A DNA stretch of 64,000 nucleotides from contig CM061250.1 in assembly GCA_022605425.2 (NCBI GenBank), forward strand, positions 434,001 through 498,000, given 5' to 3'. This DNA is from Hamiltosporidium tvaerminnensis (Eukaryota; Microsporidia; Dubosqiidae). The translations under genes were made by a program, and so were the position numbers. How positions within the stretch are numbered: the stretch's first letter is position 1; each line of letters begins with the position of its first letter. The notes under the pieces were generated by a model. That model ran no database searches, was not told the origin of the DNA, and saw nothing but the letters and a program-made list of their open reading frames with translations. Positions 3,972 through 60,686 of the stretch are shown here, one piece after another.

Positions 3972-4205
3972 GTGGAGGGAATATAACCACGCTAAAAACT
4001 TTCTGTTTTCAATTTATGCGTACAATTCGTATTGAAATCATTGCTGCCATTGCGATGGGATATAAACCACACCTGATCTATAAGCCAATCCTCTATAATC
4101 CCGAGTTAAAACTGCTTAGAGGAAATAAACAAAACATCCATTTGTTCATCCTCAACACCGAGAGATAAAAAAGGAATGGACTAAGTAAGCAAATAAGCAA
4201 ACGAT
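3972..4205 (+). repeat. Interspersed repeat family C, copy 1
   Basis: About 230 bp. It begins with a GTGGAGGGA..ATAACCAC head like that of family A, has GGGATATAAACCACAC about 90 bp in, and ends in an AAGTAAGCAAATAAGC tail. Copy 2 at 36704-36929 shares the whole length. The tail of short tandem AAGT/AAGC units is typical of SINE-like 3' ends. No clear target duplication was found. Confidence 0.7.
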
Positions 4206-6666: not shown

Positions 6667-7394
6667 GTGGAGGGAGGATAACCACATAAAAAACTTTCTG
6701 CTTGGCAATGAGTGTGTGAAACTGGTGTGAGATCATTGTTTAGATTTTTGGTGGGAATAAAACCACACTAAATCTTCGGTTGTTCCATGAGAGTTATTAT
6801 GAGGAGGAGAGGTCTACGAAATGGCGAAACTTTTTCTACAAATTCATTTGTAGTTTTTTATGTAACCAGATTACAGATCGCAGCTGAACATGTAGGTAAT
6901 TGCCATGTAAAAACATGGAAACCTAGCCTTGCTCACTCGGGTTAGAAGACTTAGTTCCTGGGAGATATAAAACAAAAAAACCATTTAAAGCCGGGAGAGC
7001 TAAGTAGCAGGTTATACCTGTTGGTATGACATTGCACTGTCTAGGTAAACCCCAAGTAAATCTCTGAAATATATCTTAGCTAGAAGTTTATTGGGTTCAG
7101 AAAGTGTAGAGTAAGTGGGAATGCTGCATAGTCTTGGGGGAGCCCAGGGGGGGCTTCGGCCCTCGATCACACTCCATGCAACGGACATTAACGAACTCCG
7201 GGCAACTGCCTCCTCTATTAATTAGGTTCTACACACCTGGTAGATGAAAGGCTTTGAGACGTAGGTATCGCAGGGGTTACCGATGGAGTGTTGGGGTAGC
7301 AGTCATTTATGTTAAACCTAGAACTGCGTTAATGTCATAAAAACAAATATAACACTTGCCACTATTTTAAAAAGATGTGATACTTTTAAATAAA
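6667..7394 (+). repeat. Interspersed repeat family A, copy 1 (full length)
   Basis: Full-length copy running from the GTGGAGGGAGGATAACCAC head to the ACTTTTAAATAAA end. It is GC-richer than the surroundings, with a hairpin-forming core (GGGGGAGCCCAGGGGGGGCT near 7136). AAATATATTT occurs on both sides (6645-6654 and 7393-7402), a possible target duplication, though with 12 extra bases before the head and in AT-rich DNA, so weak. No ATG-started reading frame of note is conserved in it. Confidence 0.85.
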
Positions 7395-15167: not shown

Positions 15168-15380
15168 TGCCGTAATTTTCAGGAAGGCAGAGCTAAGTTT
15201 GAAGTACGTCTCTAACAGAGAGATCGTCTTCCTGCTCAATGTTCGTTTGTTATTGTGTAAAGAATTGTATTTATAAGTAGAATAATTGTCTTTATTGGTT
15301 TTATTCATCATGGCACACCCCTTCTTCTTATTTTAAAATATAAAATAAAAATATTTATTTGTGATATAACTAATATCACA
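15168..15380 (-). repeat. Interspersed repeat family B, copy 1, with peptide-coding frame
   Basis: Matches the segment at 31361-31583 in opposite orientation. In its own sense it starts with the palindrome TGTGATATTAGTTATATCACA, then an A/T stretch, then GAAGGGGTGTGCCATGATG and an ATG-started frame (15311 down to 15123, 62 codons, MMNKTNKDNYSTYKYNSLHN..). The peptide has a KTISLLETYFKLS block that is also kept in copy 2. Similarity between copies stops near the AAAATTACGGCA junction at about 15168, although this copy's frame stays open to 15123. The family is not recognised. It may be the 5' end of a longer coding mobile element. Confidence 0.6.
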
Positions 15381-28147: not shown

Positions 28148-28852
28148 ACGAATAATAACCACATTTAAAAACATCTGTTAAGCAATGCGTTCGTGATATT
28201 GATGGGTAAAATCATTGTTTGGATGTTTAGTAAAGTGAAAATCACATTACATTTACGTTTTTTCAGTGGGTATTTGTAGAGGAGATGGCCTATAAAACGC
28301 TGAAACTTTTTAGACCAATTTATTTTGTAGTTTTTAATGCAACTAGATCGGTAAATACTAGTTAAATTGTAGAATATTCACATGTATGGAAGCGGGGTCT
28401 TGGCTACTCGGGTTAGAAGACTTGCGTGAGGAAGATACAAAAGCACATTTATAGAAAATTAGAAATGCTAAATATCAGTTTTTCCTTTGATATGATATTA
28501 CAGCATCTAGGCGGTTCCGTGTAAGTCACTTAGATATATCTTGGCGAGAAATCTTTTAAGTTCGAAATCTATGGAGTAGATAGAAACGCAGCCGATCTTG
28601 ATGGTACCTAGGGTGTATTTCGAACCTTAATAACACACTAGGCAAAGGAGATTAACAGGCACTTTACAAATTCTACACTCATTAAATGGCCTATGCACAT
28701 TTGTTAAGTGGAATCTTTGGGCTTTGGGTATCGAAATGAATTTCAATAGATTTTCAGACAGAATTTTATATGTTAAACCTAGAACTGCATCAATGTCATG
28801 AAAGCAAAAGATATTATTTAAAACATGGGTAATATTTTAAAATAAAAATAAT
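28148..28852 (+). repeat. Interspersed repeat family A, old diverged copy
   Basis: Nearly full length but heavily diverged. Recognisable landmarks in order: AATAACCACATTTAAAAAC head, ATCATTGTTTGGAT, CTCGGGTTAGAAGACTT, GATATATCTTGGC, and the 3' block TATGTTAAACCTAGAACTGC..AATGTCATGAAA. No clean target duplication remains. Confidence 0.75.
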
Positions 28853-30881: not shown

Positions 30882-31660
30882 AGAGAGAATAACCAAATCG
30901 AAAACTTTTTTCTTGATAATGATTAAGTGAAAATTATTTATGAAACCATTCTTTGAATTTATGTTGGGAATAAAAAAATTATATTATATTTTTTGTTATC
31001 CAATGAGGATTTGTACAAGCAGAAGAATATCAGCAAAAATGATGAAAGCTTTTTCTACAAATTTATTTTGTAATTTTTTTTGTGAGTATATTAGAAACCA
31101 CACTGAAATTGTAGAAAGTTGCTATCAAAATGCATAGAAACCTAGACTTTCATACCCGAGAAAAAAAGATTTGGGAACTGGAGATTACAAAAAAGTACAC
31201 CCTTTATAAGCCAGTAAATCTTAGTAGAAAGTTATACCTTATATTTGAAATAGAACTCTCTAAGTAGTGTTGCTTTTGTAGCCAGAATAAAATTTCTCAG
31301 AAGTTTATTAAGTTTGGAAAGTATAGAGTAGGTAAATGTGTGGCTGGTCTTTGAAAAGCCTGTGATATTATTTATATCACAAAGATATAATATTTTTATT
31401 TTACATTTTTTAAAAATGAAGGAGGGGTGTGCCATGATGAATAAAACTAATAAAGACGATTATTTTACTTATAAAAACAATTCTTTACATGATAACAGAG
31501 GAACGGTGAGCTGGAAGACTATCTCCTTGTTAGATGCGTACTTCAAACTTAGCTGCCTTTCCAAAAATTACGACAAAGCCTAAGATAGATTTGATCTGCT
31601 TTCTGAGAACGGATCTCCGCTACTTATTAAATAGGCTCTATGTATCAGTTAGAGCAAGGG
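30882..31660 (+). repeat. Interspersed repeat family A, old copy interrupted by family B
   Basis: Diverged family A: AGAGAGAATAACCAAATCG head, TTGGGAATAAAAAAATTATA, TTTATTTTGTAATTTTTTT and CAGAAGTTTATTAAGTTTGG follow the order of intact copies until TGGTCTTTGAAAAGCC (31347-31360). A family B copy begins at 31361. After it, CTACTTATTAAATAGGCTCT (about 31619) resembles the family A segment GCCTATTAATTAGGTTCTAC, so A appears to resume. The distal part is uncertain. Confidence 0.6.
31361..31583 (+). repeat. Interspersed repeat family B, copy 2, nested in family A
   Basis: Starts with palindrome TGTGATATTATTTATATCACA (31361-31381), then AAGGAGGGGTGTGCCATGATG and an ATG frame beginning at 31432 (MMNKTNKDDYFTYKNNSLHD..KTISLLDAYFKLS..) that ends at 31583. 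Same order as copy 1 at 15168-15380, which lies in the opposite orientation. The peptides share about their first 40 residues; the frames then differ, so at least one copy is broken. Confidence 0.6.
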
Positions 31661-34100: not shown

Positions 34101-36703
34101 ACTAAATGGGAGAAAAAAAAGCATTTATAGATTTATTTAACTTAAATAGTAATTTTTTCGATTTATTTGAAAGTTAAAAATTGAAATCAAAATTTTGATA
34201 TTTAATTCACGTAATAAGTCTAAAGATTGCAGAAAATAGTAAAGTGATATTTTTGAAATCTTTGATTGACTTTTGACATATAAAATTATATTTTTGGTTA
34301 AATTGCGCTTCAAAGAAAAGTAAAATCAAAATAAAAGTTTTTTTTATAGGAGCGAAATCACGGTTTATTATCCGAGGAAATCGGTTGAAAACATCTAAAT
34401 TGATGGATATAAAAAAATTCTGAATGAATAATTTTAAAAAATATAAAAAAAGACTTGAAAAATTCGGAAAAAATGTCAAAAAAATATAAAACTTATAAAA
34501 TTAAATTTTTCTGTGTAAATCCCTGCCTTCAGGAATTCAAACCTTAGAAGTCGACATACTAAGCCGGGCTGATATGATAAAGTTTTTCTATCACAATTTG
34601 TGCTTTCATCTTTTATATCGGGATTTCATATTAATGTCTACTGCAAGCGTTCGCGTATAGTCATTAATATGAAACTAAATACCTATCTCATTCTCAGAAG
34701 AGATAACCTAATAGCGAATATTCATACCATGTGTTTTTATTGAAGTCACGGTAAGGATTAGTCTAGAATTGTTTGTTAAATCATTTATATAATTCAGTAA
34801 TGTCCCGACGACGACTCACCTCGAAAAATTTGATCAGTTTAAAAAATAGAATGCACCAATAAGATGCTGTAATTAAGATATTTACCTTTATATTTGTTCA
34901 TAAAACTTACACAACCAATAATAGGGAGTAGAACTGAACAAAAAACAATTGAAAAGATTCTATCGGTTCAAAAAAATATTTGAATAAACTCTGTTAAATT
35001 GTTTCCAGATTTTGTATTTTTTAAGAATAACATGAAAAATTTGTTTTTTTTAATTTTCCATAAATTTTCATTTTTGAAAAAAAATTTAAATTAATTTGTT
35101 CTGATTTCGTTTCCAAGAATTTAAAGTGTTGCATAAAAAATTTTATGATACAAATGATGTTTTTTGCCGTTCTTCTGTGTAATATATTTATATTCTCAAT
35201 AATAATTGCAAAACACAAATATTACCTGAATAGCTTTATACAACTTTATATTTGATTAAATCGAAAGATTATTAATAAAAATGACTAAGAATTTTTAGAA
35301 TAAATAAATTTAATACTACAGCATATAGTTAAAAGAACGTTTTTTCAGATAAAGAAAATTCAACGTCTGAATAAATTTCTTTGAGAAAAAAAAGACAGAA
35401 TTGAATATAAATAAGTGGAAAGTGAACAGGCTAAACATAAAATGCCGAGCTGAAGCTCCGAAAAATTGAAAGTAAATTAAATGAAAGGAGGAGAATATGC
35501 TGTTAAAAAATATCCTAAATTTTATTGAAAAATTTCTTAAGAGCGGCAAATAATCCAAAAATGAAGGACTAAAAAATATACGAAAAACAGACTAGGTGAC
35601 AGTATAAAATTTTTATTGCAGTGATTTAGAAATTATGTCAGATAGTGAAGTTTAAGATTATTTTCGGGATTATTTCTCTTAGGAATATAAAATAAAGTTC
35701 GTTTCCATGAGCTTAACGTCTAGTATAATATAATTTAAAAAGATGTCTCGAAAATTTGAGAAAAATTACCAAAAATTAACTTAAACGAGATGCTCATATG
35801 TATTCTTACGTTTAATTTTCGCTTTCGCAGCATAAAATGGCGTTAAAAAACTCACTTCGACAAATAGAGAACGGTCTTTGGCGCATTCCACTCTAAAAAA
35901 TAAATTTTCTGTCTACTACTACCCATTTATTAATTCGGAGCTAAAGAGAAGGCTTTTTTGAAATAAATCACAATATTTTTCAAACTGAATTGAAACACTT
36001 TCAGAATTGCCCGATATTCCTAACACCTTAGAAAAATTTAAGTAAATGATACACCATGAAACAGTTTTTAAGAAGAATGCTTTTTTATTTTCAGAATCAC
36101 TAATCTTTAATTTTTTATTAGTTGGTAAAACTAAAAAAACAAATTAAATTATTTGAGATTTTAAGAATTACTACATAGTTGCTGAAAACGAAAGTATCTT
36201 TGACTCAAAGAAAAGAAGTCGGCAGCAAAAACAATAAAAATGAAAAATACAGGCTAAAAATGACACTGATGAGGTAAAAAAAGACAAATACATTGAAAAA
36301 ATATTGGAAACATCCACCGGCGAATTTCTTAGATTCCTTTATCTAAAGAAATTGAGTCGTAACCAAATTCTGAATAGAGACGGGAAAGAGCGTTAATATG
36401 TGTTATCAAAAGGGCCGAGAGGCATGAGGAACAAATACTCTATAAATCAAAGAAGAAATATGATCTTAAACATGTCAATATAAATATATTTCCACTCCTT
36501 TGTATGATGGAGGAACTGACAATGAAAACCCATAAATATCTGACTATAATGAAAAAATAAAGCGGTCAAAGAGGTAGAATAAAATATTTGAAAAGTAAAA
36601 ACATTTTAATCCAGGATTTTATTAGAAATAAACTCATTTTATTGCAAATTTATTTTTTAAAAAATAAAAACGAAGATAATATTATCATATTATTAATTTT
36701 GAT
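34101..36703. other. Intergenic, mixed decay, no gene supported
   Basis: AT-rich. A 45-codon open stretch near 34531-34660 (GIQTLEVDILSRADMIKFFY..) and a GC-richer patch at 36.3-36.5 kb look like eroded coding DNA, but I recognise no family. The last 120 bp before the family C copy (36570-36680) resemble 37990-38110. Confidence 0.4.
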
Positions 36704-36929
36704 GCGGAGGGAGGATAACCACATTAAAAACTTTCTGTTTGGTAATGATGTGTACAATTCGTTATATAATAATTGCTGCCATTATGGTGAAATATAAAGC
36801 ACATCAGATCTATAGACCAATTCTCTATAATCACGAGCTACAACTGATTAGAATAAATAAATAGAAAACTTTCATTTTTTCAGCCTCGATACCTAGAAGT
36901 AAAAGAGGAATGGAATAAGTAAGTAAGTA
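36704..36929 (+). repeat. Interspersed repeat family C, copy 2
   Basis: Begins GCGGAGGGAGGATAACCACA and continues TTAAAAACTTTCTGTTTGGTAATG, identical in layout to the family A head. From about 105 bp in it leaves family A and follows copy 1 of family C (AGATCTATAGACCAATTCTC..CTCGATACCTAGAAGTAAAA). It ends GGAATGGAATAAGTAAGTAAGTA, a tandem AAGT tail. No exact target duplication was found. Confidence 0.75.
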
Positions 36930-37175
36930 TTTTTAATTTCGAAAGAAAGTACTCTAAAAGTTTTTTATACCCTAAAAACTGAAGTATAATGTATAAAATA
37001 ATTGATTTTGAGAACTGAAATACTTGCGAAGAATTTAAAAGAACAAAAAAACTAACTTAAAAAAACGTAAAGATTATCAGAACCGCGCCTCAAAACAAAG
37101 TTTAGACTCTTTAAATTATAATTAAATTACTAATCTACAAAAAAAATTGTAGTTAGTCAAAACTAACAATACAAA
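36930..37175. other. Intergenic spacer between family C copy 2 and family A
   Basis: AT-rich, nothing recognised. Confidence 0.5.
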
Positions 37176-37188
37176 TACATATTTCTAA
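37176..37188. repeat. Target-site duplication, left
   Basis: TACATATTTCTAA, exact copy at 37922-37934 across a family A element. Confidence 0.85.
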
Positions 37189-37921
37189 GAGAATACTTTA
37201 TTTAAAAGTATCACATCTTTTTAAGATAGTGGCAAATGTTATATTTGTTTTCATGACATTAACGCAGTTCTAGGTTTAACATAAATGACTGCTACCCCAA
37301 CACTCCATCGGTAACCCTTGCGATACCTACGTCCCAAAGCCTTTCATCTACCAGGTGTGTAGAACCTAATTAATAGGCGAGGCAGTTGCCCGGAGTTCGT
37401 TAATGTCCGTTGCATGGAGTGTGATCGAAGCCCCCCCCCCGAGCTCCCCCAAGACTATGCAGCATTCCCACTTACTCTACATTTTCTGAAACCAATAAAC
37501 TTCTAGCTAAGATATATTTCAGAGGTTTACATGGGGTCCACCTATACAGTGCAATGTCATACCAACAGTTATAACCTGCTACTTAGCTTTTCTGGCTTTA
37601 AATGGTTTTTATTTTTATATCTCCCAGGCGCTAAGTCTTCTAACCCGAGTGAGCAAGGCTAGTTTTCTATGCTTTTACATGGCAATTACCTACATGTTCA
37701 GCAGCAGTCTGCAATCTGGTTACGTAAAAAACCACAAATAAATTTGTAGAAAAAGTTTCTCCAATTCTTAGACCTCTCCTCCTCATAACAACTCCCATAG
37801 ATCAACCGAAGATGTAGTGTGTTTTTAGTCCCACCAAAAATCCAAATAATGCTTATTACACCAGTTTCACACACTCATCGCCAAGCAGAAAGTTTTTTAT
37901 GTGGTTATCCTCCCTCCACCT
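37189..37921 (-). repeat. Interspersed repeat family A, full-length copy with target duplication
   Basis: Reverse-strand copy, 733 bp. TACATATTTCTAA flanks it exactly at 37176-37188 and 37922-37934, a 13-bp target-site duplication. Sense 5' end is GGTGGAGGGAGGATAACCAC; sense 3' end ACTTTTAAATAAAGTATTCTC. Terminal inverted repeats are absent. Internal runs of five or more T would stop RNA polymerase III, and an AATAAA lies at the 3' end, so a Pol II transcript is the likelier template. Confidence 0.9.
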
Positions 37922-37934
37922 TACATATTTCTAA
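37922..37934. repeat. Target-site duplication, right
   Basis: TACATATTTCTAA, exact copy of 37176-37188. Confidence 0.85.
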
Positions 37935-38704
37935 AATAATTATTGAAATATATTTATTTATATGAGTTGCTTGAATACTGAAGATAAATATAAATGAAGA
38001 GTCTGATTTGGAAGAAGAACCGGTAGTGGTAAAAGAGCTAGAAGAAAATGCATAAAAATCGTAAAACTATTTTAATCCAGAAATTAATTAAAAAAAAATT
38101 TATTTAGTTGCTTGAACGAAAACTCTTTTTTTTTTATTACGAGATGAAATAAAATGAGAAAAATATTTAATAAGAAGGTAAGGATGTTATTATAATAAGT
38201 TGCAACAAAGAGTTATGACAGTAAAGAAATGCAAAATCATTGATTTAGTATAGAAATATAAATATCGAATTTTAAGATTTAATACACAATAATTATAAAT
38301 TTAATTTAAGTTATATTTTTAAAAATTAGTTTAGAATTCGAATACAAAAAAAAGAAGACATCAAAAATACTAATCTGGTATTAATAAAATATTCAAATCA
38401 ACACTTAGATATTAAATACAAAAAAAGAAACAGCAAATAGAAACAATAAAATACTAAATAGCAATAAAAAATCAACTTTTATCATTTATTTATATTCTTT
38501 AAAAAAAACAATATTAATCAAAAATGGAATATTAATATAAATTATTTATACTGAAAATGAAGATATAATTTATATTTAATTAATAAGGTTATTTCCTATA
38601 AAACATGTATTAATTATTCCTTTATTAATATTAAATACAAATATTCTTTGGTTTGATACACTTTATAAGTACTACGCTTTATATATTATGATGATATTAT
38701 TTTT
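37935..38704. other. Spacer between two head-to-head family A copies
   Basis: AT-rich. The stretch 37990-38110 (with AACTATTTTAATCCAGAAATT) resembles 36570-36680 and 25.5-25.6 kb. Its short acidic frame (EESDLEEEPVVVKELEEN) ends just before that block. No gene called. Confidence 0.45.
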
Positions 38705-38716
38705 AGGTTAATTTTT
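38705..38716. repeat. Target-site duplication, left
   Basis: AGGTTAATTTTT, repeated exactly at 39447-39458. Confidence 0.85.
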
Positions 38717-39446
38717 GGGCGGAGGGAGGATAACCACATAAAAAACTTTCTGCTTGGCAATGAGTGTGTGAAACTGGTGTGAGATCATTGTTTGGATTTT
38801 TGGTGGGAATAAAACCACACTACATCTTCGGTTGTTCTATGGGAGTTGTTATGAGGAGAAGAGGTCTAAGAAATGGAGAAACTTTTTCTACAAATTTATT
38901 TGTAGTTTTTTACGTAACCAGATTGCAGACTGCTGCTGAACATGTAGGTAATTGCCATATAAAAACATGGAAACCTAGCCTTGCTCACTCGGGTTAGAAG
39001 ACTTAGCGCCTGGGAGATATAAAATAAAAAACCATTTAAAGCCGGGAGAGCTAAGTAGCAGGTTATACCTGTTGGTATGACATTGCACTGTCTAGGTGGA
39101 CCCCATGTAATTCTCTGAAATATATCTTAGCTAGAAGTTTATTGGGTTCAGAAAGTGTAGAGTAAGTGGGAATGCTGCATAGTCTTGGGGGAGCCCAGGG
39201 GGGGGCTTCGGCCTTAGATCATACTCCATGCAACAGACATTAACGAACTCCGGGCAACTGCTTCGCCTAGTAATTAGGTTCTACACAGCCGGTAGATGAA
39301 AGGCTTTGGGACGTAGGTATCGCAGGGGTTTCTGATGGAGTTTTGGGGTAGCAGTTATTTATGTTAAACCTAGAACTGCGTTAATGTCATGAAAACAAAT
39401 ATACCACTTGCCACTGTTTTAAAAAAGATGTTATACTTTTAAATAA
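38717..39446 (+). repeat. Interspersed repeat family A, full-length copy with target duplication
   Basis: Plus-strand copy, 730 bp, flanked by AGGTTAATTTTT at 38705-38716 and 39447-39458 (12-bp target duplication). Starts GGGCGGAGGGAGGATAACCA and ends ACTTTTAAATAA directly before the right duplication. Together with the inverted copy at 37189-37921 it makes a large inverted pair about 800 bp apart. An open frame of 77 codons at 38764-38997 begins with GTG rather than ATG, so I do not call it a gene. Confidence 0.92.
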
Positions 39447-39458
39447 AGGTTAATTTTT
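39447..39458. repeat. Target-site duplication, right
   Basis: AGGTTAATTTTT, exact copy of 38705-38716. Confidence 0.85.
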
Positions 39459-39493
39459 AAAATAATAACCTCTAAGTAATACAAATGATAAAT

Positions 39494-39720
39494 TTAGAAC
39501 ATCAAATAGTATAATATAAGAGAAATAATATAATATAAGAGAAACAAGGAATTAGAAATAATAAATATAATATAAAAATAATATAAGAAAAGAGAAATAA
39601 TAAATATAATATAAGACAAATATACATATAATATAGAAAAAAAAATATAAAAAATAATATAATATAAGAAATAATATAATATACGAGAAATAATAGAAAA
39701 ATAAATATTAACTTTATATC
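39494..39720. repeat. Degenerate AT/purine simple repeat
   Basis: Recurrent ATAATATAATATAAGAGAAATAATA blocks with drifting length. The reverse strand reads as an 81-codon hydrophobic Ile/Tyr/Ser frame; that is a by-product of the repeat, not a membrane protein. Confidence 0.7.
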
Positions 39721-40354: not shown

Positions 40355-40635
40355 ATTTGGGGCGGTTTAAATTTCTTTTTACTTTTTTTTATATTTTTCT
40401 TATATTTATTGGTAGAAGATAATACAAAGGTAACTTTTTGATATTTAAAGAGATACTTGTTTTATTTTTATAAGAAAGAATTGGTTATTTTATACTTGTA
40501 GAATGAATGTATAGTTTGATAAGTTAATTGGATTAAACTAAGATTTTTTTTCAAATTTTAATAGTTTTTTTTTAACAATGAAGAAGTGCTTCAAACTGTA
40601 ATTAAAGATATTAAAATAAAAAATATATTATGAAT
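40355..40635. other. Promoter side of the 196-aa gene
   Basis: AT-rich spacer with the CCCC run next to the start. The minisatellite starts at its right end. Confidence 0.5.
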
Positions 40636-41468
40636 TAACACCCCTTTAATAACATACCAGAGTACCTTCTATCTAACACCCCTTTAATAACATACCAGAG
40701 TACCTTCTATCTAACACCCCTTTAATAGCATAACAAATAATACCTTCTATCTAACACCCCTTTAATAACATACCAGAGTACCTTCTATCTAACACCCCTT
40801 TAAACCACATACTTACTGTAAATTGAATTTAACACACCTTTAACATCCTAGTAGTGTACCTTGTATCTACCACCCCTTTAATAACATACCTGTGTACCTT
40901 CTATCTAACACCCTTTTAATAGCATAACAAATAATACCTATATCTAACACCCCTTTAATAACATACCTGAGTACCTTCTATCTAACACCCTTTTAATAGC
41001 ATAACAAATAATACCTTTTATTTAACACCCCTTTAATAACCTACCAGAGTACCTTCTATCTAACACCCTTTTAATAGCATAACAAATAATACCTATATCT
41101 AACACCCCTTTAATAACATACCTGTGTACCTTCTATCTAACACCCTTTTAATAGCATAACAAATAATACCTATATCTAACACCCCTTTAATAACATACCT
41201 GTGTACCTTCTATCTAACACCCCTTTAATAACATACCTGAGTACCTTCTATCTAACACCCCTTTAATAACATACCTGTGTACCTTCTATCTAACACCCTT
41301 TTAATAGCATAACAAATAATACCTATATAACACCCCTTTAATAAGATACCTGAGTACCTTCTATCTAACACCCTTTTAATGCATAACAAATAAACCTTAT
41401 ATCTAACACCCCTTTAAAATATAACAAATATTACCTTTTATTTAACACCCCTTTAATAACATTTATAT
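40636..41468. repeat. Minisatellite, 22 units of 38-41 bp in two alternating types
   Basis: Units share TAACACCCCTTTAATA. Type a continues ACATACC(A/T)G(A/T)GTACCTTCTATC (38 bp); type b has TTTTAATAGCATAACAAATAATACC(TATATC) (39-40 bp). By my count 22 units, with a and b often alternating, so a higher-order a-b unit of about 77 bp is present. Units 5 and 6 are most diverged. The array lies between the 3' end of the secreted-protein gene (41535) and the start of the 196-aa gene. Confidence 0.92.
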
Positions 41469-41534
41469 AATAATATACTAAATAAGATATAATAATTTTA
41501 AAATAAGCTATTAGTAATACCTTTATTGATTCAC

Positions 41535-48235: not shown

Positions 48236-48953
48236 TTATCGAAAAGTATCATATCTTTTTTAAAAAGGTGGTAAGTGTTATATTTATTTTCATGAGATTA
48301 ACGCAGTTCTAGGGGTAACATAAATAACTGCTACCCAACACTTCATCAGTACCACCTGCAATACCTACGTCTTAAAGCCTTTCATCTATCAGGTGTGTAT
48401 AACCTAATTAATGGGCGAGGCCGTTGCTCGTAGTTAGTTAATGTCTGTTGCAAGCAGTGTTTTCGAAGCCCACCTGCAATCCCCTAAGACTATGCAGCAT
48501 TCCCACTTACTCTACACTTTCTGAACCTAATAAACTTCTAGTTAAGATATATTTCCGAGACTTACACGAGGTCTCTTAGACAGTGCAATGTCATATCAAC
48601 AAGTATACCCCGCTACTTAGCTCTCCCGGCTTTAAATAGTTTTTTATATTTATATTTCCTAGGCGCTAAGTCTTCTAACTCGGGTGAGCAAGGCTAGCTT
48701 TCCATGCTTTTACATGGCAAACACCTACATGTTTAGCTGCGGTCTGAAATCTTGTTACATTAAAAACTACAAATAAATTTGTAAAAACGGTTTCGCTATT
48801 TCGTAGACCTCTACTCTTGATATAAACGCCCATGGAACAACAGAGAATATAGTGTAGTTTTATTCGCACCAAAAATCTAAACAATGATCTTCACATCAGT
48901 TTCACTCACTTATTGCCAAGCAGAAAGTTTTTTATGTGGTTGTTCTCCCTCCA
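48236..48953 (-). repeat. Interspersed repeat family A, intermediate-age copy
   Basis: Reverse-strand copy, nearly full length, visibly more diverged than those at 37189, 38717 and 49307 (e.g. GTTGTTCTCCCTCCA head, changed GC-rich core CCCACCTGCAATCCCC). No clean target duplication; flanks show only an imperfect ATAACT..TTAT match. Confidence 0.85.
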
Positions 48954-49293
48954 TAAATAACTGTCTTTATAATTAGCTATTAATACTTTCAAATCTTTTT
49001 TTTTCTAATTTTCCTTCATTTAACTATCTATATCCTATCTAGGCATTAAATTATATGAGAATAGACAAAACCAACATTTATTAGCTGTATACCTTTTTTT
49101 AAACATAGTGATGTGAATACTGATATGATTTGATTAAAAGACTTATCCTTTTTTAAATATAGTGATATGAATAATTATATGATTTGAATTATAAGATAAA
49201 TATATATCTTGTAAAACCAAATATTTTCTTATAAAAAACCTATTAGTTTTACAAATAAGTATTAATAATCTAAATATTTTGTAATAAAGAAAA
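48954..49293. other. Spacer between two tandemly oriented family A copies
   Basis: AT-rich. Contains AAACATAGTGATGTGAATA and AAATATAGTGATATGAATA about 50 bp apart, a short direct repeat. Confidence 0.5.
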
Positions 49294-49306
49294 TCTTAAT
49301 TCAAAT
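49294..49306. repeat. Target-site duplication, left
   Basis: TCTTAATTCAAAT, repeated exactly at 50038-50050. Confidence 0.87.
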
Positions 49307-50037
49307 TCTTTATTTAAAAGTATCACATCTTTTTTAAAACAGTGGCAAGTGTTATATTTGTTTTCATGACATTAACGCAGTTCTAGGTTTAACATAAATA
49401 ACTGCTACCCCAAAACTCCATCAGTAACCCCTGCGATACCTACGTCCCAAAGCCTTTCATCTACCAGGTGTGTAGAACCTAATTAATAGGCGAGGCAGTT
49501 GCCCGGAGTTCGTTAATGTCCGTTGCATGGAGTGTGATCGAAGGCCGAAGCCCCCCCTGGGCTCCCCCAAGACTATGCAGCATTCCCACTTACTCTACAC
49601 TTTCTGAACCCAATAAACTTCTAGCTAAGATATATTTCAGAGATTTACATGGGGTCCACCTAGACAGTGCAATGTCATACCAACAGGTATAACCTGCTAC
49701 TTAGCTCTCCCGGCTTTTAATGGTTTTTTATTTTATATCTCCCAGGCGCTAAGTCTTCTAACCCGAGTGAGCAAGGCTAGGTTTCCATGCTTTTACATGG
49801 CAATTACCTACATGTTCAGCTGCGGTCTGCAATCTGGTTACGTAAAAAACTACAAATAAATTAGTAGAAAAAGTTTCTCCATTTCTTAGACCTCTCCTCC
49901 TCATACAAACTCCCATGGAGCAACCGAAGATGTAGTGTGGTTTTATTCCCACTAAAAATCCAAACAATGATCTCACACCAGTTTCACACACTCATTGCCA
50001 AGCAGAAAGTTTTTTATGTGGTTATCCTCCCTCCACT
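49307..50037 (-). repeat. Interspersed repeat family A, full-length copy with target duplication
   Basis: Reverse-strand copy, 731 bp, flanked by TCTTAATTCAAAT on both sides (13-bp target duplication). Very close to the copy at 38717-39446, so probably a recent insertion. Same head, hairpin core and AATAAA-bearing 3' end. Its 77-codon frame (49991-49758) again starts with GTG, not ATG. Confidence 0.92.
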
Positions 50038-50050
50038 TCTTAATTCAAAT
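50038..50050. repeat. Target-site duplication, right
   Basis: TCTTAATTCAAAT, exact copy of 49294-49306. Confidence 0.87.
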
Positions 50051-60614: not shown

Positions 60615-60686
60615 TGGAAAGACGGGGAATTGAACCCCGGACCTTCTGCATGCAAAGCAGACGTCATACCACTAGACCATCCTCCC
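60615..60686 (-). tRNA. tRNA-Ala (anticodon TGC)
   Basis: Reads GGGAGGA-TG on the minus strand from 60686. D-arm GTC/GAC with AGTGGTA loop, anticodon stem TCTGC/GCAGA with loop TTTGCAT (anticodon TGC, at 60652-60654), five-base variable loop AGGTC, T-arm CGGGG-TTCAATT-CCCCG, and 3' acceptor TCTTTCC. All stems pair, allowing G-U. The G3-U70 wobble pair, the identity mark for alanyl-tRNA synthetase, is present, and the discriminator is A. No intron, no encoded CCA. It lies 72 bp from the divergent NAC-alpha gene. Confidence 0.95.

Follow-up and report, generated by a model that had tools for sequence, protein, structure and literature searches.

A short LINE-dependent retroposon of the microsporidian Hamiltosporidium tvaerminnensis and an R2-like LINE as its likely partner

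Introduction

The DNA analysed here, a stretch of 64 kb at positions 434001-498000 of contig C5 of Hamiltosporidium tvaerminnensis and called the window below, contains five full-length copies of a dispersed, non-coding repeat of 730 bp. The question that this locus raises is how such a repeat, which we call element A, is spread and what moves it. H. tvaerminnensis is a parasite of water fleas with a genome that is large for a microsporidian, and the portion of the genome report consulted gives an assembly of 21.64 Mb in 17 contigs with 26.60% GC, of which 25.45% is classed as 'other' interspersed repeats (PMC10542269). A literature search for Hamiltosporidium with SINE found no paper. For another microsporidian, Nosema bombycis, the excerpt at hand lists a Dong-R4 class of LINEs and a SINE class, the latter totalling 28,669 bp or 0.18% and given there as a length total without sequence or partner (PMC3614468).

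Results and discussion

Element A in the window and in the genome

The features of the window are collected in Table 1. Three copies of element A had been delimited by exact direct repeats of 13, 12 and 13 bp in an earlier sequence-only reading, and this held: the flanking duplications can be read directly, and the bounds 37189-37921, 38717-39446 and 49307-50037 are exact. The first and the last of these copies lie on the same strand and the middle one on the opposite strand. The flanks of the older copy at 48236-48954 were checked and no duplication was found. It had also been claimed that the element has no ATG-started coding frame. The longest ATG frame among the 60 copies described below has 83 aa, and the top eight differ in frame and position.

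Table 1. Element A and related features in the window (TSD, target duplication)
Feature	Position	Strand	Basis or remark
Family B element	3972..4180 (approximate ends)	plus	resembles element A over first 100 bases
Element A, full length	about 6667..7394	plus	94% identity to 38717-39446 copy; weak 9-bp candidate duplication
Old relative of element A	28155..28808	plus	66% identity
Old partial relative of element A	30882..31239	plus	69% identity
Candidate partner LINE, relic	36208..36632	plus	scattered matching pieces, the last from the LINE 3' end
Family B element	36702..36930 (approximate ends)	plus	matches first 49 bases of element A core
TSD TACATATTTCTAA	37176..37188 left, 37922..37934 right	.	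13 bp, read directly
Element A, full length	37189..37921	minus	sequence, TSD; RNA strand from 5'-truncated copies
Candidate partner LINE, 3'-end fragment	37987..38098	plus	80% identity
TSD AGGTTAATTTTT	38705..38716 left, 39447..39458 right	.	12 bp, read directly
Element A, full length	38717..39446	plus	sequence
Element A, older, full length	about 48236..48954	minus	85% identity
TSD TCTTAATTCAAAT	49294..49306 left, 50038..50050 right	.	13 bp, read directly
Element A, full length	49307..50037	minus	99.6% identity with contig C17 copy at another site

The copy number in the genome was estimated with three 31-base probes, allowing up to 3 mismatches. The 5', middle and near-3' probes had 570, 583 and 686 matches, respectively, and the control matches were 0 for each. 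These counts climb toward the 3' end, which fits 5' truncation, the three probes being unequally conserved. A 22-base probe of the 3' end, with one mismatch allowed, had 422 matches. Taking the 583 matches of the middle probe at 0.73 kb each, element A makes up about 2% of the genome.

Sixty complete copies were read, namely, 50 of the 100 listed exact matches of the 5' probe (L009-L038 and L112-L131), the best matches (L001-L008), and those of the window. Since most of them were chosen through the exact 5' probe, the sample is biased to copies with well-kept 5' ends. Left out were a match that repeats one of those in the window and is cut by the end of its locus, identical repeats of one copy, and partial or old copies, among them L124 and L015, the 3' part of L015 being lost in a low-complexity stretch. 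Two copies, L021 with the same flanks as L020 and L022 with the same upstream flank as L023, were removed for the counting of duplications, and this left 58. By a fixed criterion 46 of the 58 copies have a target duplication (46 of 59 when L022 is included) as against 7.1% of mismatched flank pairs (n = 1,500), and when the distance from both ends of the element was also bounded the number was 40 of 58. No duplication was found by the criterion in the other 12 copies, several of which are more diverged; neither L022 nor L023 has one. The duplications range from 8 to 18 bp, with a mode of 12, and are mostly 10-16 bp long: 8 bp in one copy, 10 bp in seven, 11 bp in five, 12 bp in twelve, 13 bp in seven, 14 bp in six, 15 bp in five, 16 bp in two, and 18 bp in one.

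Strand, ends and spread of element A

Two truncated copies, L029 and L009, have lost one end and kept the other, with duplications around them, as judged by eye. The end kept in both reads CTTTTAAATAA(A) and, therefore, the 3' end of the RNA lies there and its 5' end is GTGGAGGGAGGATAACC. For the copy at 37189-37921 the RNA strand is thus the minus strand of the window and reads 5' GTGGAGGG ... CTTTTAAATAAAG 3'. The AATAAA that had been pointed out near the 3' end is real, and it makes up the 3' terminus of the RNA strand, TTTTAAATAAAG.

At the 5' side, exactly two variable bases precede GTGGAGGG in 26 of the 46 copies with duplications, and close copies tend to have the same extra bases. If transcription began at this point, near-identical copies would be expected to have such bases in common. 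Of the same 46 copies, 14 end in AAATAAAG on the 3' side and 16 have tails there of at least 7 bases. Four of these 16 long tails end in AATAA(A) compared to 1.5% of flank positions (P = 8e-5), this ending having been picked after the tails were seen and then scored. L005 is the sole copy with a long poly(A), a run of 15 A, directly before the duplication, and the runs of 8 A near four other copies are outside the interval between element and duplication. The 3' tail of L002 and L004 was searched for genome-wide and found at those two places alone; since each of the two is the other's nearest neighbour within the 60 copies, their common tail was probably inherited in this one case. The RNA fold of one copy of element A had a z-score of -1.05 against 20 shuffles.

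Some pairs of copies are 99.2-99.7% identical and yet sit at different sites with different duplications. Two pairs are at 99.6-99.7%, and one of them includes the window copy 49307-50037. Measured against the majority base of each column, the copies diverge by a median of 3.3%. The family was probably active recently, and its recent insertions (the 99.7% pairs) could serve as strain markers. Target-primed reverse transcription had been proposed from the duplications of the window copies, and this is borne out by the variable length of the duplications, by two copies that are truncated at the 5' end but complete at the 3' end, and by near-identical copies at different sites. That element A spreads by target-primed retroposition is well supported.

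Transcription and the 5' end shared with family B

If element A were a classical SINE made by RNA polymerase III, with a head derived from a small RNA that was not recognised, its length, its copy number and the hallmarks of target-primed reverse transcription would all fit, and so would the conserved 5' end that it has in common with family B. Against this, a search of Rfam with 37100-39500 gave no match up to E = 5, and the one tRNA that ARAGORN found in the window, at 60615-60686, is outside element A. A head of the tRNA, 7SL or 5S kind with the A and B boxes of polymerase III was not found, the boxes being looked for by eye. The internal T-runs, which had been held to speak against polymerase III, are a property of the whole sample: runs of at least 5 T are in 60 of the 60 copies, mostly near +70, +160 and +180, and runs of at least 6 T in 56 of the 60. 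Because no small-RNA head was found and because all 60 copies have these T-runs, transcription by polymerase III is unlikely, and we regard a classical SINE of this type as improbable. The better guess from these features of the copies is that RNA polymerase II makes the RNA of element A.

Family B resembles element A in its first 50-100 bases and has a different 3' end. This common 5' end suggests a functional module, perhaps a promoter. In one locus, L056, a family B copy is inserted within an old copy of element A, as seen by eye. The two family B copies of the window, 36702-36930 and 3972-4180, end near AAGT-like repeats. Family B has 32 probe matches genome-wide, four of which are spaced 12.8 kb apart on contig C12.

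An R2-like LINE of the same genome

A search of the genome for reverse transcriptases gave 456 candidates, 150 of which were scored, and many of the scored matches have frames of 1,253-1,300 aa (about 1,255 aa). When 30 reverse transcriptase loci were fetched and grouped, 16 of them fell into one group, which is the R2-like LINE. A LINE protein of this genome has up to 92% identity with Hamiltosporidium tvaerminnensis records. In two near-complete pieces, L052 and L065, Pfam found the reverse transcriptase and nothing else above the cut-offs; apurinic endonuclease, protease, RNase H, and integrase were absent by Pfam in both. At the C-terminus a CCHC pattern is followed by RPDI..D..E, which we take to be the pattern of a restriction-like endonuclease. 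A profile of 16 sequences of this LINE, compared with solved structures, found R2 proteins first (E = 1e-40) and LINE-1 ORF2 after them (1e-31). In the fold comparison, too, seven R2 chains ranked first with E down to 6e-24, the predicted model being of moderate confidence (pLDDT 71.8, pTM 0.45). Thus, the candidate partner appears to be a LINE with an R2-like reverse transcriptase and a predicted C-terminal restriction-like endonuclease.

The junctions were examined in 20 copies with long frames that were fetched at both ends. Nineteen were readable, L086 being without a readable start, and 15 of the 19 have exact duplications of 11-16 bp. A score of 12 was reached by 0.3% of 342 mismatched LINE pairs. 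Of the other four, two are in repetitive flanks, one has 8 bp, and one has 11 bp with a mismatch. The 3' end of this LINE is CAGAATTTTATTAAATAA(A) or nearly so. At the LINE 5' junctions (L072, L075, L077 and L078-L110), the 15 copies with exact duplications have 0-9 bases between the duplication and the ATG. The LINE thus seems to have practically no 5' UTR, and its promoter would have to be either within the coding sequence or in the DNA upstream of the inserted copy.

A second group of LINEs (L042, L043, and L047) has frames of about 915 aa, and copies of it lie less than 10 kb from the starts of contigs C4 and C9. L042 has a weak match to an apurinic-type endonuclease that is below the cut-off.

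Evidence linking element A to the R2-like LINE

The sizes of the duplications of element A and of the R2-like LINE overlap, with medians of 12 and 13, respectively, and differ slightly (p = 0.07). The sites of insertion are also alike. With a matrix made from 15 nick sites of the LINE, from which L088 and L110 had been left out for their repetitive flanks, 42 sites of element A scored 0.09, compared to -2.43 in 3,525 flank positions (p = 1e-6) and -2.23 in the reverse complements of the sites (p = 6e-5). Limited to the five bases before the nick, where the element's own end has no influence, the same two comparisons gave p = 3e-6 and 3e-4. A smaller test with 24 sites of element A and 15 of the LINE gave p = 0.005 and 0.012, and a test with 17 LINE sites, L088 and L110 included, gave p = 2e-6 and 3e-4. 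The nick context common to both is ATT/(A,T)TTT. The R2-like LINE was the only LINE taken into this comparison.

Both elements end in TTAAATAAA. It had been suggested that a 3' end shared with a LINE would name the partner. The last nine bases of element A and of the R2-like LINE are identical, which only 4 of 7,150 flank positions reach, and an end-to-end alignment of the last 60 bases is better than that of Markov shuffles (p = 0.001). Beyond the nine bases there is only a weak resemblance, as the best local alignment of the 3' ends was equalled by 42% of shuffles and is not significant. Taken together, these sequence comparisons make the R2-like LINE the likely, though not proven, partner of element A.

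It is also conceivable that a different LINE moves element A, be it of the apurinic type, of the 915-aa group or one outside our sample, and that AAATAAA is simply the polyadenylation signal of the species and the nick context common to several LINEs. The genome does have other LINEs and, besides the local similarity of the 3' ends not being significant, TTAAATAAAG was also found downstream of the stop codon in five copies of the 915-aa group; therefore, the common terminus may be just a motif like a poly(A) signal. What makes this explanation unlikely to us is that the nick context is directional and exceeds both the flanks of the same copies and its own reverse complement, that L040, the sole apurinic-type copy whose end was read, has a TTTTA repeat tail unlike element A, and that 16 of the 30 grouped reverse transcriptase loci belong to the R2-like LINE. 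We consider it very improbable that element A derives from a longer coding element, by internal deletion or as a terminal part of it, as a SIDE, a solo LTR or a derivative of a DNA transposon would. Such elements are common, and inverted pairs of element A occur about 4.85 kb apart. On the other hand, the similarity between element A and the fetched LINE loci amounts to short matches due to chance and to the nested pieces in L056, the duplications vary in length, and the flanks of the copies are unrelated except in L020/L021 and L022/L023, apparently duplicated segments. The inverted pairs on contig C3 are a segmental inverted duplication with arms of 1.9 kb that contain whole copies of element A, and the inverted pair on C5 resembles them within element A alone. 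A composite transposon made of inverted element A pairs 4.85 kb apart was considered and rejected because L132 is such a segmental inverted duplication. In L132 (C3:821000-827400) the two arms are 97% identical with one copy of element A in each, and a near-identical arrangement is found about 35 kb further on.

Coming back to the R2-like LINE as the mover, we think it likely that its protein copies the RNA of element A into new sites by target-primed reverse transcription. The element would be transcribed by RNA polymerase II, with the promoter lying within the conserved 5' end and the RNA beginning about two bases before GTGGAGGG. ATT/(A,T)TTT would be the site at which the predicted endonuclease of the LINE nicks the bottom strand, and the reverse transcriptase of the LINE would begin either at the AAAUAAA(G) terminus of the RNA or immediately beyond it. 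A second cut, mostly 10-16 bases away, would yield the duplication. A more specific proposal, and one that we put forward as a possibility to which we give rather less than even weight, is that polymerase II makes the RNA of this short microsporidian retroposon and that the element exploits an R2-type LINE in which recognition of the RNA 3' end has been reduced to a terminal AAAUAAA resembling a poly(A) signal. If this were true, almost any transcript ending in AAAUAAA could be copied, and transcripts reading through the first such motif would have their end at one further along.

Comparison with known elements

The sequence-only reading had stated that the element has no known relative. This has to be amended, since there is the likely partner LINE, the 5' end of family B, and a known kind of system in the EhSINE and EhLINE elements of Entamoeba. 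As far as the excerpts of two reports go (PMC2996970, PMC3716655), EhSINE1 of Entamoeba histolytica is like element A in being non-coding, 0.5-0.7 kb long and without a tRNA or 7SL head, and in having target duplications, 5' truncations, a T-rich sequence upstream of the insertion, and a LINE, EhLINE1, that moves it; according to a title cited in these excerpts, common target sites of EhLINE1 are cut by a restriction-enzyme-like endonuclease. By the same excerpts (PMC2996970, PMC3716655) about 70 bp of the 3' end of EhSINE1 are common with EhLINE1, whereas element A and its candidate LINE have nine exact terminal bases in common, and EhSINE1 has internal repeats of 26-27 bp and B-box-like motifs, such repeats not having been noticed in element A. 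The authors of the EhSINE1 work, in the excerpted text, hold that a strict definition excludes it from the SINEs (PMC2996970). Element A is short, non-coding, dispersed and present in many copies, as the strict criterion asks of SINEs, but for the same kind of reason as EhSINE1 it is outside the strict definition, and it is best called a LINE-dependent short retroposon.

The R2 SIDEs of Drosophila are, in the excerpt consulted (PMC3414825), short and non-autonomous elements that use an R2-type protein, as element A may do. Unlike element A, they are described there as internally deleted elements with the R2 ribozyme and an R2 or R1 3' end that sit in rRNA genes. Element A has no similarity to the body of the LINE, and its insertion sites are scattered and AT-rich. 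With element A the microsporidia have a defined short retroposon for which a candidate partner can be named, and this suggests that elements living in the manner of EhSINE are not confined to Entamoeba. The minimum of 3' RNA sequence that an R2-type LINE requires also becomes open to test.

Two other repeats were seen in the window. At 40548-41471 there is a tandem array, family D1, that repeats about every 77 bases, and the stretches 15168-15227 and 31518-31575 have short matches (88-90%) to one end of a piece of an LTR-type element, L049.
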